The notes below the pieces were generated by a model. The model saw only the letters and a list, made by a program, of their open reading frames with translations. It searched no databases and was not told where the DNA came from. Source: Flavobacteriales bacterium (GTDB taxonomy: Bacteria; Bacteroidota; Bacteroidia; Flavobacteriales; Flavobacteriaceae). From it: DNA of 39,050 nucleotides. Position 1 is the stretch's first letter, and each line of letters begins with the position of its first letter. The stretch lies in contig QIJL01000029.1 in NCBI GenBank assembly GCA_003232435.1, positions 1 to 39,050 on the forward strand. The letters run 5' to 3'. Position numbers and translations under genes: made by a program. Below are positions 6,565 through 25,513 of this stretch, one piece after another.

Positions 6565-7688
6565 TTAGTTGTCTCCTCTAAATCTCCCCGGAGGGGAGAC
6601 TTGATCAATAGTTTTTCTATTTCGTCTACGATATGTTTTGTCGCATCCGGCAAAGCCAATTTCTTGATATTGTTGCCCAATTCGTTTTGTTTTTCTTCGG
6701 ATTGGTGCAACTCTGAAAAAACAGCTTCGAACTCCGTATCCAAATCTTTTTCTTTTAACATCAGAGCAGCATTTTCGGCGACCAGGGCTTCGGCGTTCTT
6801 CGCCTGATGATCTTCCGCTACGTTCGGTGACGGAATAAAAATTGTCGGTTTGCCTACAATGCACAATTCAGAAACCGAACTTGCCCCCGCCCTGGAAATA
6901 ATATAGTCGGCAGCGGAATAGGCAAAATCCATCTTATTCAGAAAATCAAAAACCTTTACACTTTCCGAATCGTATTTTTTATACTGCTCGAAATAAAGTT
7001 TGCCACATTGCCAGACCAATTGTAAGTCCATCGACCTAAAAAAGTCCAGTTCTTTTTCAATAAGTTGGTTGATTCTTCTTGCTCCCAGACTTCCTCCTAA
7101 AACAAGAGTTGTCTTTTTATCCGGATTCAATCCAAAGAAATCAATAGCCTCATTTTTGTCTACGTTCATCTCGACCAAAACGCCACGAACGGGGTTTCCG
7201 GTCTTTACTATTTTACCCGAAGGAAAGAATTTTTCCATTCCGTCATAAGCGACACAAATTTTGGCGACTTTATCCTTGAGCAATTTATTGGTCATTCCGG
7301 CATAAGAATTCTGCTCTTGCAAAACACAGGGAATACCCCGATCCGAAGCTACCTTTAACAGTGGGCCGCTCGCAAAACCACCGGTGCCGATAACGACGTC
7401 TGGTTTAAATCGTGATACTATTTTCCTTGCCTTTAACAAACTACTGATCAGTTTAAAAGGAAACATCAGATTCTTGACCGTTAGTTTCCGTTGTAATCCT
7501 GTGATCCAAAGGCCTTCAATTTTATAGCCGGCCTTAGGTACTTTTTCCATTTCCATGCGGTCTTTTGCCCCTACGAACAAAAATTCCGCTTCTGGGTGTC
7601 TTTTCTTCAACTCGTTCGCTATGGCGATGGCGGGGTAAATATGACCGCCTGTACCTCCTCCAGAAAGTATGAACTTATAATTGCCCAC
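6561..7688 (-). CDS. murG: UDP-GlcNAc lipid II transferase MurG
   Basis: [17 protein letters not shown]28 family C-terminal region; atypical palindromic tail at the C-terminus. Confidence 0.97.
6571..6600. repeat. REP-like GC-rich palindrome inside the 3' end of murG
   Basis: GTCTCCTCTAAATCTCCCCGGAGGGGAGAC: inner stem CTCCCC/GGGGAG, outer GTCTCC/GGAGAC. Confidence 0.6.
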
Positions 7689-8883
7689 TTAGCACTTCTA
7701 AAGGGTTCGTTATTTCCATATCCGAACTTCTACTTTTACTCTTTTTCTTCGCACTACCTTTTACGCTGGCGCTTAAAATGATTCCTATTGCCAAACAGGT
7801 CATCCAACTTGAGGTACCCCCACTACTGATCAATGGCAAGGTCTGCCCCGTGACCGGGAATAATTCTACAGCAACTGCCATATTGATCAATGCCTGAAAA
7901 ACGATCGGAAGGCCAACACCGAGTACCAACAATTTTCCGAAAATCTTCTTATTGGCATTCGCAACGACGACTATCCTGAACAACAACAGCAGATAAAAAA
8001 ACATCAAGGCTATTCCTCCCACCAGTCCGTACTCCTCGACTATTATCGCATAGATAAAATCAGATGAGCTCTGTGGAAGAAAATTCTTTTGAATACTCTT
8101 GCCGGCACCTTTACCGACTATTCCACCCGTCGCAATCGCAATCTTCGCTTTCTCGATTTGGTAATCGGCTTCGCTATCTTCATCATTTGTAAAGCTGGAA
8201 ATTCTATTTTCCCATGTGTTTACTCGATTACTGAAAGAATCAGGGAAAGCTTTAGCTACAAGCACAAAAAATGCTAGACATAAAAGACCGCTACCAGCAA
8301 TTCCCAATAAGTATTTAGTGGGGTATCCTCCTAAAAAACATAACAGTAAAACCATTGAAAAAATGATACCTGCCGTAGAAAAGTTGGCAGGCAAAATCAA
8401 AATGACGACCAAAAAAACCGGGACCCATAACGGAAGAATACTCTCTTTAAAAGTAACCTCCTTATCTTTTATTTTTGATAGATATCGTGCCACGTAAATC
8501 ATCAAAACAACCGATGCTAAATTGGAAGTCTGAAAAGTGATTCCCACCAATGGCAATTGAATCCAACGACTGGCATTGGCACCTTCGATAGTAGTGCCTT
8601 GTGCCAATGTAAATACCAAAAGCACTAAAACAATTGGCATCGCGATAAGCGACAAACCCTTGAAGTAACGGCTCGGTATTCGGTGTATTCCATAAATAAT
8701 TCCAAAACCAAGTATCAACAACATGGCATGTTTCACCAAATAACCCATCGTGGTTCCACTGCCAACAACATAGACCAAATTACTGCTGGCACTATAGACG
8801 GGCAAAAATGAAAACAAAGCCAAAAGCGCGACCACAGCCCAAATAGTTTTATCTCCCTTGATATTTTGGAATAACGATTTCAC
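7675..8883 (-). CDS. ftsW: SEDS-family glycosyltransferase FtsW
   Basis: Multi-TM protein with FtsW/RodA C-terminal motif ([12 protein letters not shown]); GTG start. Confidence 0.95.
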
Positions 8884-8986
8884 AGATACTGATTATTGAT
8901 TACTGCCTACTGTTTACTGTTTACTGCTCACTGTTTACTGTTTACTGCCAACTGCTTACTACCTACCGCCTACTGCTCACTGTTTA
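8882..8986 (-). repeat. Degenerate heptamer tandem array (TRRRCAG-like, about 15 units) filling the murD-ftsW spacer
   Basis: Minus strand parses as TAAACAG TGAGCAG TAGGCGG TAGGTAG TAAGCAG TTGGCAG TAAACAG TAAACAG TGAGCAG TAAACAG TAAACAG TAGGCAG TAATCAA TAATCAG TATCTGT; the first TAA is the murD stop. Confidence 0.95.
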
Positions 8987-10318
8987 CAAATTCCTAATCG
9001 CTTCCTTGAATTGATTTCCTCGATCTTCATAGCTTTTAAAAAGATCGAAGCTTGCACATGCCGGTGAAAGCAGAACCGTGTCACCTCGCTCAGCGATTTT
9101 ATAGGCAACCTTAACGGCCTCCGACATCGCAAATGTTTCCACCATTAAATCGACGACATTGCCAAAGAAATCCTTGATCTTTGAATTGTCTTCACCCAAG
9201 CAAATAATCGCCTTTACCTTTTCACGAACCAAGGGCATCAATTGACTATAGTCATTTCCCTTGTCAACCCCGCCGACGATCCAGACGGTCGGGGCACTCA
9301 TACTATCCAGGGCAAAAAAGGTAGCATTAACGTTTGTTGCTTTTGAGTCGTTGATATACTGTACATGGCCAATTCTGAGCACTTTCTCAAGACGATGGGG
9401 AGCTCCATGAAAGTTTGTAATACTTTCTCGGATGGTGTCTTTTCGTATTCCTACCAAAGTAGCCGCCAAAGAAGCCGCCATCGTATTCTTTAAATTGTGT
9501 CTGCCCTCAAGTGCTAGGTTGTCGGTGGTCATGCGCATTGTATTGTTTTTAACTTGTATTACTATTTCGTTGTTCTCGACATGGGCACCTTCTTCCAATT
9601 TATTTTGGATGGAAAAAGGCACTAAGTGGGATCTGACAGGATGCTTTTCTAACCAGTTAACAATTACTTCATCATCGGCATCATAAATCAGAAAATCCGA
9701 TTCGGTTTGGTTCGTCACAATCCGAAATTTGGAGGCTATATAATTTTCAAACTCATGCTCATAGCGATCCAAATGATCAGGAGTGATATTCGTTATTATG
9801 GCAATTTGTGGTTTAAAGTCGATGATACCGTCCAGTTGAAAACTGCTGATTTCCAAAACATAAAAATCAAAGCTTTTTTCAGCTACCATTTTCGCATAGC
9901 TATCTCCTATGTTACCCGCCATGCCAACATTTAGCTTCTCGGCTTTGAAAATGTGATCCGTCAACATAGTTGTGGTCGTCTTGCCGTTACTACCGGTAAT
10001 TCCTATTATCATCGCATCAGTGTATTTCGATGCAAATTCGATTTCAGAAATAACCGGTATTCCGTTAGCAATCAGATCTTTTATCAAAGTCACCTTATCA
10101 GGTATCCCCGGACTTTTCATTACAAGATCGGCGTTCAAAATCTTCGATTCGGTATGTTGACCTTCCTCCCAATCAATCCCAAAATGTTCAAGAACTTTTT
10201 TATACTTTTCTTTGATGATTCCTTTATCCGAAACAAAAACATCAAAGCCCTTTTTTAATCCTAATATTGCTGTACCAACTCCACTTTCTCCTCCTCCTAA
10301 TGCAACAAGCCTCGCCAT
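8984..10318 (-). CDS. murD: UDP-N-acetylmuramoylalanine--D-glutamate ligase
   Basis: [24 protein letters not shown] motifs. Confidence 0.97.
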
Positions 10319-15507: not shown

Positions 15508-15539
15508 TTCAACAGTTCAACATTTCAACATTTCAACTA
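15508..15539 (-). repeat. Octamer tandem array starting at the rsmH stop codon
   Basis: Minus strand TAGTTGAA ATGTTGAA ATGTTGAA CTGTTGAA (4 x 8 nt); TAG is the rsmH stop. Confidence 0.9.
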
Positions 15540-16448
15540 TCTGCGTTCCGCGATTCGGAGCTTGGCACTTCGCGCCCTATTATTCTTTGCTACTTCTTCT
15601 TTCGATGGAACGACCAACTTTCCCACTTTCTTGAAAGGCACATCTACATTTCCGTAAAAGTCCTTCTCTGCCTCACCTTCGAATTTTCCTTCCCGTATGA
15701 ACCTTTTTGCCAATCGATCTTCCAAAGAGTGGTAACTGATCAAGCTCAATCTTCCTCCGGGATCCAACAAATCAACACTTTGTTGTAAGAACTCTTCGAT
15801 TGCTACTAACTCTTGGTTCACCTCAATTCGAATCGCTTGGTATACCTGTGCGATTATTTTATGCTCTTTACTTTGCGGCAAAAACCTTTTCAAGACTTCC
15901 TTTAATCGCAAAGTGGTCTTAATCGGGTCATTTTCTCTTTCGTCAACTATAGTTCGTGCCATGGCATCGGCATTTCGCAATTCTCCGTACTGAAAAAGTA
16001 CCCTGCGCAAATCTTCATATTCATATGAATTGACCACATCAAAGGCCGACAATTCATTTTGCATGTTCATTCGCATATCGAGATCTGCGTCGAAGCGCGT
16101 CGAAAAACCACGTTCGGCTTTATCGAACTGATGCGACGAAACCCCGAAATCGGCCAAGATTCCGCCTACCTTCTGAATGCCATAGAACTTCAAAAACTGC
16201 TTTAGGTATCGAAAATTCTCATTGATAAGGGTAAATCTTGAATCATCGATCGTATTTTCAAATGCCTCATCATCCTGATCAAAAGCCAGCAATTTGCCAT
16301 CTGCACCCAACCGTTTCAGTATTTCATCGGAATGTCCTCCGCCACCGAAGGTTACATCCACATAAACTCCATTTTCCCTAATGTTTAGTCCGTCAACGGA
16401 CTCCTTCAACAATACCGGATTATGATATTTCGACATCGTCTCCGTCAT
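15537..16448 (-). CDS. rsmH: 16S rRNA (cytosine(1402)-N4)-methyltransferase RsmH (MraW)
   Basis: YHNPVLLKESVDGL, DVTFGGGGHS, ISYHSLEDRLAKRFIREG motifs. Confidence 0.97.
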   Translation of the reverse strand: MTETMSKYHNPVLLKESVDGLNIRENGVYVDVTFGGGGHSDEILKRLGADGKLLAFDQDDEAFENTIDDSRFTLINENFRYLKQFLKFYGIQKVGGILADFGVSSHQFDKAERGFSTRFDADLDMRMNMQNELSAFDVVNSYEYEDLRRVLFQYGELRNADAMARTIVDERENDPIKTTLRLKEVLKRFLPQSKEHKIIAQVYQAIRIEVNQELVAIEEFLQQSVDLLDPGGRLSLISYHSLEDRLAKRFIREGKFEGEAEKDFYGNVDVPFKKVGKLVVPSKEEVAKNNRARSAKLRIAERR

Positions 16449-23816: not shown

Positions 23817-23824
23817 TATATTTG
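23817..23824 (+). promoter_or_regulatory. TATATTTG -7 type promoter element before the alpha/beta hydrolase
   Basis: Perfect TAnnTTTG match about 25 nt upstream of ATG 23849. Confidence 0.45.
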
Positions 23825-23848
23825 TTCGAAGACCAGATTCGACCGTGC

Positions 23849-24613
23849 ATGGATGAAAAATTAATTTCCGAAGGAAAGTTCAAGTACATGGAGAAGGGGG
23901 AAGGAACCCCCATCATTATTTTACATGGTCTTATGGGCGGGTTGAGCAACTTCGAAGGCGTGATGGACCACTTCCCGAAAAAAGGGTACAAAGTTCTGAT
24001 CCCCATGCTTCCCATTTATGACTTGCCCATGTTGAAAACCAATGTGAAGCAATTCGCCAGATTTCTCGAAAAATTTATTGAGTTCAAAGGTTTGACCGAT
24101 GTTATTTTATTAGGAAACTCGCTAGGAGGGCATATCGGTCTTCTTCATACCAAATTATTTCCCGAAATGATAAAAGCCCTTGTAATTACAGGAAGTTCAG
24201 GACTTTACGAGAGTGCAATGGGCGATGGCTATCCTCGTCGAGGGGACTACGACTTTATCAAGGCGAAGGCCGAAAAAGTTTTCTACGACCCGAAAGTGGC
24301 CACCAAAGAAATTGTCGACGAAGTATTTGCGACCGTCAATGACCGAAACAAGACCATAAAGACTCTTGCAATCGCCAAAAGTGCGATTCGTCATAATATG
24401 TCGGACGATCTGCCCAGTATGAATACCCCCACATGCATTATCTGGGGAGAAAACGATACGGTCACTCCGCCCGATGTAGCCAAATTATTTCATGAACTAC
24501 TGCCCGATTCCGACCTGCATTGGATAAAAAAATGCGGTCACGCCCCTATGATGGAACATCCTTTGGAATTCAATGAAATCTTGGATGCTTGGTTAGAAAA
24601 ACGAGAGTTTTAA
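23849..24613 (+). CDS. Alpha/beta hydrolase
   Basis: HGLMGGLSNF oxyanion region, LGNSLGGHIG nucleophile elbow, WGENDTVTPP acid, CGHAPMMEHP His; ATG start preferred over the TTG at 23822. Confidence 0.9.
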   Translation: MDEKLISEGKFKYMEKGEGTPIIILHGLMGGLSNFEGVMDHFPKKGYKVLIPMLPIYDLPMLKTNVKQFARFLEKFIEFKGLTDVILLGNSLGGHIGLLHTKLFPEMIKALVITGSSGLYESAMGDGYPRRGDYDFIKAKAEKVFYDPKVATKEIVDEVFATVNDRNKTIKTLAIAKSAIRHNMSDDLPSMNTPTCIIWGENDTVTPPDVAKLFHELLPDSDLHWIKKCGHAPMMEHPLEFNEILDAWLEKREF

Positions 24614-24614
24614 G

Positions 24615-24782
24615 GGTAGACGGTAGACGGTAGACGGTAGACGGTAGACGGTAGACGGTAGACGGTAGACGGTAGACGGTAGACGGTAGACGGTAGACGT
24701 AGACGGTAGACGGTAGACGGTAGACGGTAGACGGTAGACGGTAGACGGTAGACGGTAGACGGTAGACGGTAGACGGTAGACG
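24615..24782 (+). repeat. GGTAGAC / TAGACGG heptamer tandem array (about 24 units, one internal 6-nt unit)
   Basis: 11 perfect TAGACGG units, one TAGACG (24694-24699), 11 more units, terminal TAGACG; begins directly after the hydrolase TAA. Confidence 0.99.
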
Positions 24783-24796
24783 AAAAATTAAGCTTT

Positions 24797-24828
24797 TAAA
24801 CTCCTAAACCAATAAACTCATAAACTTT
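24797..24828 (+). repeat. Octamer tandem array TAAACNNN x4
   Basis: TAAACTCC TAAACCAA TAAACTCA TAAACTTT. Confidence 0.8.
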
Positions 24829-24834
24829 TTTTGT

Positions 24835-24870
24835 ACTTGAACTTGCGTTTGCACTTGAACTTGAACTTAA
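24835..24870 (+). repeat. Hexamer tandem array ACTTGA x6 in the engB leader
   Basis: ACTTGA ACTTGC GTTTGC ACTTGA ACTTGA ACTTAA ending 4 nt before the engB GTG. Confidence 0.85.
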
Positions 24871-24874
24871 TCCA

Positions 24875-25492
24875 GTGAAAATAAAATCGGCAAACTTTGT
24901 TATAAGCAATACCGACGTGGCCAAATGCCCGAACGAGCTCTTGCCGGAATATGCATTTATCGGCCGATCGAATGTTGGCAAGTCATCTTTGATAAATATG
25001 CTGACCGAGCGAAGAAGTTTGGCAAAAATCTCTGGGCGCCCCGGAAAAACCCAACTCATCAATCACTTCAAAATCAATGGCAATTGGTTTTTGGTCGATC
25101 TACCGGGATACGGTTACGCTCGCGTATCAAAAAAAAGTAAAAAAACATTTCAAAAATACATTACCAACTACTTTGAACAGCGCGAACAATTACTTTGCTC
25201 CTTCGTACTGGTAGATATCCGCCACGAACCCCAACCCATTGATATGGAATTTATGGAATGGATGGGCGAAAACGAGATTCCATTTTCCATAATATTTACC
25301 AAGGCAGATAAATTGAAACCTGCTATAGTCAAAAAAAACGTTGATGCTTATTTGCAAGAATTGGTAAATGGGGCCTGGGAAGAAGCGCCGTCTCATTTCG
25401 TCACTTCCTCATCGAAGGACATTGGGCGCGAAGAGGTTCTGGAGTTTATCGATTCCATAAATGACGGATTTTTTAAAGAAGAATCTGGTTAG
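24875..25492 (+). CDS. engB: Ribosome biogenesis GTP-binding protein EngB (YihA/YsxC)
   Basis: FIGRSNVGKSSLIN, GRPGKTQLINHF, DLPGYGYA, FTKADK motifs. Confidence 0.97.
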   Translation: MKIKSANFVISNTDVAKCPNELLPEYAFIGRSNVGKSSLINMLTERRSLAKISGRPGKTQLINHFKINGNWFLVDLPGYGYARVSKKSKKTFQKYITNYFEQREQLLCSFVLVDIRHEPQPIDMEFMEWMGENEIPFSIIFTKADKLKPAIVKKNVDAYLQELVNGAWEEAPSHFVTSSSKDIGREEVLEFIDSINDGFFKEESG

Positions 25493-25513
25493 GTGCTGGG
25501 TGCTGGGTGCTAA
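25490..25513 (+). repeat. Short heptamer array starting at the engB stop codon
   Basis: TAGGTGC TGGGTGC TGGGTGC TAA; TAG is the engB stop. Confidence 0.8.

Follow-up and report, generated by a model that had tools for sequence, protein, structure and literature searches.

The spacer between murD and ftsW in a marine flavobacterium (Flavobacteriales bacterium, assembly GCA_003232435.1) is one member of a dispersed heptamer repeat family, CAGTNNN, in which a fixed CAGT is followed by three variable bases. It is probably a lineage-specific copy that was seeded at a compact murD/ftsW junction, and the many stop codons it carries would then be a by-product of the repeat sequence. The spacer was studied within a window of 39,050 nucleotides, by which the whole analysed stretch of contig QIJL01000029.1 (positions 1 to 39,050) is meant.

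Read on the minus strand, the TAA of murD (8986-8984) opens exactly 14 phased heptamers, which are followed by TATCT and the GTG of ftsW (Table 1), as the initial annotation had described. Also as described there, 13 of the 14 units begin with a stop codon (TAA, TAG or TGA), TTGGCAG being the exception. The array was independently detected by TRF (8887-8987, period 7, 14.4 copies, score 83; alternatively called with period 21 and score 111), and its self-identity at a lag of seven amounted to 0.719, whereas 5000 dinucleotide shuffles averaged 0.285 and never exceeded 0.479, so that it has the tandem 7-bp unit typical of dispersed intergenic heptamer repeats. At 100 nt the gap indeed stands alone in the stretch from ftsQ to ftsI, all other junctions there being overlaps or measuring at most 19 nt. 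CAGT is followed in this array by AAA, GAG, AGG, AAG, TTG(G) or AAT and never by TAT, and G runs of at least three, the tracts of quadruplex-forming repeats, are absent. Two of the earlier statements hold in part only. Read-through was said to end within about 21 nt, which is true of two frames, closed every 21 nt, and not of the third, in which a 42-nt stretch is free of stops because of the TTG unit. Likewise, GG was said never to follow the T of a unit, which applies to this array and not to the genome, as four CAGTGGN units occur elsewhere, also within another stop-anchored array (L179).

Table 1. Features at the murD-ftsW junction, in coordinates of the window.
Feature	Position	Strand	Basis
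murD	8984..10318	-	Pfam: Mur_ligase_M, MurD_N, Mur_ligase_C
murD stop codon TAA, native position	8984..8986	-	MurD C-terminus EAIRNL* aligns with relatives' EAIKNL*
14 heptamer units, register TNNNCAG (= CAGTNNN), unit 1 including the murD stop	8889..8986	-	sequence, TRF and self-identity test
TATCT, partial or degenerate array end, adjoining the ftsW start	8884..8888	-	
ftsW start codon GTG, native position	8881..8883	-	comparison with relatives
ftsW	7675..8883	-	Pfam: FTSW_RODA_SPOVE

In the metagenome-assembled host genome of 4.1 Mb the pattern CAGTNNNCAGTNNNCAGTNNNCAG (at least four units) was found at about 17 sites, and the reversed control gave none. Of the 150 Flavobacteriaceae genera that were sampled, 40 contained arrays of at least five units, with controls near zero in most genomes; in a few genomes of this sample the mirror pattern exists as a separate heptamer family. 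By its core and period the murD-ftsW spacer therefore belongs to a dispersed family, and this family occupies many, mostly intergenic loci; in the wider sample, all but one of the 124 arrays lay outside long ORFs. To see which end of the arrays is younger, unit degeneracy was followed along them: the identity of the core was 0.84 in the first and 0.92 in the last unit, and only the first unit was clearly more degenerate (p=0.06). A scan for all arrays of periods 5-9 in 829 kb yielded just 16 intergenic rows, a number too small for statistics.

The comparison with relatives comprised 109 other murD-ftsW loci, some genomes being counted twice. None of them contained the same array, and the spacer was mostly 2-12 nt long; it measured 12 nt in Kriegella sp. 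EG-1, whose FtsW is 90% identical, and 3 nt in Kriegella aquimaris. A few other spacers were long, among them those of L035 (144 nt) and L071 (93 nt), which show heptamer traces of other kinds. Comparison of the spacer across relatives, as the initial annotation had proposed, thus revealed no conservation of the array, and a conserved element in the spacer was rejected. Both the C-terminus of MurD (...EAIRNL*) and the N-terminus of FtsW match those of the relatives; hence the gene ends are native, the array sits between intact ends, and a MurD C-terminus truncated or replaced by the array was rejected as well. Taken together, the absence of the array from the relatives' junction and the sameness of the gene ends show it to be a recent insertion or expansion. 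Other arrays of the same genome also occupy junctions which are short or array-free in relatives. Three of these further arrays are alike, the CAGT arrays of L179 and L187 in the own genome and a (GGTAGAC)24 array in the window (24615-24782), in that the upstream protein is changed in its last one or two residues at most. At L187 the downstream gene of the nearest relative overlaps its neighbour (TGATGA), where the own genome has about 180 nt starting with a CAGT array, and at L181 the stop of the gene falls inside unit 1, yet the C-terminus is still native.

Several other arrays were noticed in the window. The (GGTAGAC)24 array begins 1 nt past the TAA of ORF 23822-24613 (alpha/beta hydrolase) and is succeeded at 24783-24874 by AT-rich sequence, C-rich heptads of the AAACTCAT type and TTGAAC hexamers, up to the start of ORF 24875-25492, a member of the 50S ribosome-binding GTPase family; the relatives lack this array. 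From the stop of this latter ORF about three copies of GGTGCTG extend (25490-25511), a young-looking stop-anchored array. Directly at the stop of ORF 15537-16448 (-) there are 3.8 copies of an 8-mer (15508-15537), which reads ATGTTGAA in the minus-strand direction.

The position of CAGTNNN arrays relative to genes was assessed in 102 spacers, with one array per spacer. In 79 of them the CAGT strand had its 5' edge closer than its 3' edge to the neighbouring coding end (p=2e-8), and leaving aside the own genome this held in 70 of 88 spacers; p-values are approximate, since gene ends were taken from simple ORF calls and many of the arrays come from the same genomes. Within -21 to +15 nt of the coding end lay the 5' edge in 64 and the 3' edge in 12 of the 102 spacers. 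The left edge of the array stood at a stop (-21 to +15 nt) in 50 of 70 spacers, where random placement would give 19.9 and reached no more than 31 in any of 5000 draws, and the phasing to stops that had been postulated beyond this locus was thereby borne out. Polarity was strongest where the array lies between a stop and a following start (43 of 50) and had the same sign in convergent (14 of 19, p=0.06) and reverse-strand spacers (20 of 30, p=0.10), neither class being significant alone in a sign test; in 13 reverse-strand cases the edge preceded the called start by 3-9 nt. The CAGT strand accordingly has its 5' edge either immediately behind a stop or some 5 nt ahead of the start of an opposite-strand gene. 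This phasing to gene ends is genuine and extends across the CAGTNNN family, and slippage alone is no sufficient account of this 5'-edge anchoring. As a separate observation, CAGTAAT arrays were located 5-6 nt upstream of the apparent start of the same gene in two genera (L175, L193). We take this gene to be trpB by the look of its product (MSYQANEKGYY / MNTYHADEKGY).

Tandem, intergenic and dispersed heptamers are known as STRR (short tandemly repeated repetitive) sequences from filamentous cyanobacteria. CAGTNNN shares their description as dispersed intergenic tandem heptamers, a likeness of description and not of sequence, and differs in unit and phylum. Rehm et al. (2015; PMC4692102), who cite three heptamers from Calothrix, described GGGAATC and GGGGA(C/T)T repeats in Xanthomonas and Nostoc. 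Whichever way the genes point, these repeats lie nearer to the 5' ORF; on the coding strand they are close to stops or overlap them, on the non-coding strand they are near starts, and no associated function was found for them (PMC4692102). The CAGTNNN family resembles them in its 7-bp unit, its dispersed and intergenic occurrence, its polarity and the occasional facing inverted pairs, and the murD-ftsW array itself fills the gap from 1 nt after the stop. The unit of Rehm et al., however, is G-tract bearing and quadruplex-forming, which CAGTNNN is not, and its positions are 83% conserved between two close species, whereas not even the nearest relative has the murD-ftsW copy. Direct repeats of TAACTGA were reported from Beggiatoaceae, Cyanobacteria and some Bacteroidetes (MacGregor, 2015; PMC4679880), with the remark that one orientation necessarily ends reading frames, noted as a constraint. 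Their reverse complement, CAGTTAT, has the CAGT core and the period in common with the murD-ftsW array; they too are intergenic and mixed with other heptamers, and in some Bacteroidetes long arrays correspond to short repeat-free spacers in close relatives, as at murD-ftsW. By contrast, the exact TAACTGA/TCAGTTA unit is absent from the murD-ftsW array, which shares the CAGT core alone, and most TAACTGA repeats are oppositely oriented and immediately precede starts, while the present array follows a stop and fills the spacer from stop to start. The earlier view that no element of this kind had been described can therefore not be upheld, since polar stop-adjacent heptamers (PMC4692102) and CAGT-core repeats (PMC4679880) represent the kind. 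In the literature searched no description of a flavobacterial CAGTNNN family with gene-end polarity was found, and the family with this polarity adds a new case.

In the account we favour, a CAGTNNN copy would have entered the compact junction by insertion or seeding, leaving the native murD stop and ftsW start intact on either side, and its 7-bp units would have multiplied via tandem duplication or slippage. The abutment on the murD stop would follow the family-wide polarity, with the 5' edge of the CAGT strand at the end of the coding sequence, and much of it could be due to compact operon junctions tolerating insertion solely between stop and start. Stops in all three frames would arise as a by-product because the invariant T of CAGT and a purine-rich NNN make up TAA, TAG or TGA, and a period of seven rotates them through the frames. 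What speaks against this account is that slippage by itself leaves the anchored 5' edge unaccounted for, that the convergent and reverse-strand spacers taken singly fall short of significance, and that stop-forming units are in slight excess in the other genomes.

An alternative which we consider unlikely is a regulatory 3'UTR/5'UTR element, the RNA of which would be bound by S1, Csp or a CsrA-like protein, or which would act on transcript ends, and thereby alter ftsW. Such a role would suit the strictness with which arrays are placed at coding ends across many genomes; protein binding of TAACTGA repeat RNA was proposed by MacGregor (PMC4679880), and quadruplex-forming heptads were found to contain transcript starts or ends at a higher frequency than controls (Rehm et al.; PMC4692102). 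However, because the polarity is constant, CAGT lies on the coding strand at stops and on the non-coding strand at starts, so that the two positions give rise to different transcribed sequences, and the array is not conserved at murD-ftsW. Nor did the transcribed spacer show a stable fold, its minimum free energy having a z of +1.6, with 194 of 200 shuffles folding at least as well. The array had no Rfam match, the only one in the window being a tRNA elsewhere, and an RNA structure, an intrinsic terminator or a known RNA family was rejected on these grounds.

It is quite improbable that a mobile composite element, made up of CAGT heptads, an AT-rich centre and C-rich heptads or TTGNNN hexamers, inserts as a whole and is represented at murD-ftsW by its heptad arm only. 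Junctions filled exactly from stop to start would fit such an element, as would a right-hand sequence common to L176 and L178 and partly to the GGTAGAC locus of the window, and the facing CAGT arrays that form inverted repeats at L186, L174, L209 and L215. Against it, neither a target-site duplication nor an encoded protein was seen, the murD-ftsW copy is without a right arm, and just three locus pairs of the own genome share right-hand sequence, for which reason a general composite element with a common right-hand partner was rejected.

Some features of the spacers themselves may be recorded here. The facing arrays of the four loci named above run inward from both coding ends, and at L186 an inverted repeat (CAGTGGTCAGTATTCAGTAAGCAGT) is placed near both ends of a spacer of about 200 nt. 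Runs of TTGNNN hexamers (TTGAAC, TTGCAC and TTTGAA types) and likewise C-rich heptamers (CATCCAG, CTAACCT, CTCAAAC) often intervene between a CAGT array and the next gene (L192, L198, L202, L207, L213 and window 24831-24868); of 39 segments that run up to a start, 5 contained three successive TTGNNN, and the reversed sequence contained none. At L188, L191 and L220, in two genomes, the apparent end of an IS3-type insertion sequence (TGTACGTCCCTGATATAGGTTGACC), the transposase being judged by eye, abuts CAGT arrays, which may be safe landing sites for insertion sequences.

A further reading is that of a translational stop cassette, in which selection keeps stops in all frames so that ribosomes reading through the end of murD are caught and ftsW is uncoupled or tuned; the initial annotation had suggested, tentatively, that the array could set the ftsW:murD translation ratio or uncouple the two genes. 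We regard the cassette as highly improbable, even though 13 of the 14 units carry stops, every frame is closed and the array occupies the only long spacer of the cluster. The supposition that the stop was kept while the sequence drifted finds no support in the own genome, where 67 of 98 intact units have a stop at the T and 66.3 are expected if the next two bases are independent. The dinucleotides after CAGT in this genome (AA 46, TG 15, AG 12, GA 9, AT 6, GG 4 and few others) imply tolerance of TTG, TAT and TGG units. Behind other genes the family also occurs with stop-free units, and 10 of 49 stop-anchored arrays have no stop in the T register, such as the CAGTCGT/CAGTGGT arrays of L214, L215 and L217; the stop fraction is 0.47 in anchored and 0.45 in unanchored arrays. 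Changes to non-stop triplets as frequent as changes from stop to stop had been named beforehand as an observation that would speak against the idea, and among the single-step differences between neighbouring units 7 were stop/non-stop and 11 stop/stop, a surplus that transitions alone would favour. In the other genomes combined, 451 of 871 units form stops compared with 429.9 expected, a small excess whose calculation assumes independence, which units that arose as tandem copies of one another do not have. Furthermore, no relative has an array at murD-ftsW, and one tandem stop would be enough against read-through. The many stops are thus most likely a side effect of the repeat sequence and not a purpose-built cassette. 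Finally, an assembly or binning artefact is scarcely credible despite the fragmented genome (669 contigs, 84% complete, 6% contaminated), as the array is short and degenerate and hence easily assembled, it lies on a 39-kb contig with intact flanking genes, and the CAGTNNN family also occurs in well-assembled genomes, for example on the 4.27-Mb contig of G080.

If the murD-ftsW array is a seeded repeat copy, its sole likely effect on the host would be that an unstructured leader of 100 nt replaces the close spacing and weakens the translational coupling of ftsW to murD. Termination-reinitiation coupling would be lost and ftsW would rely on its own unstructured, A-rich leader; an uncoupling of ftsW from murD is plausible.

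With the tempting reading of a stop cassette corrected, the Flavobacteriaceae provide, with a unit that forms no quadruplex, an independent phylum-level case for the rule that heptamer arrays have a fixed edge at coding ends, and this case weakens explanations of the rule that are based on quadruplexes. There is a small chance that arrays of unrelated units (CAGTNNN, GGTAGAC, GGGAATC of Xanthomonas, GGGGATT of Nostoc) share one directional process across phyla, a seeding or extension outward from the ends of coding sequences on the G-bearing strand; if so, recent insertions like that at murD-ftsW would be the places to catch it. Heptamer arrays can enter an essential operon of division and cell-wall genes between intact gene ends, and the array in this marine flavobacterium constitutes a natural experiment on the coupling of ftsW and murD.
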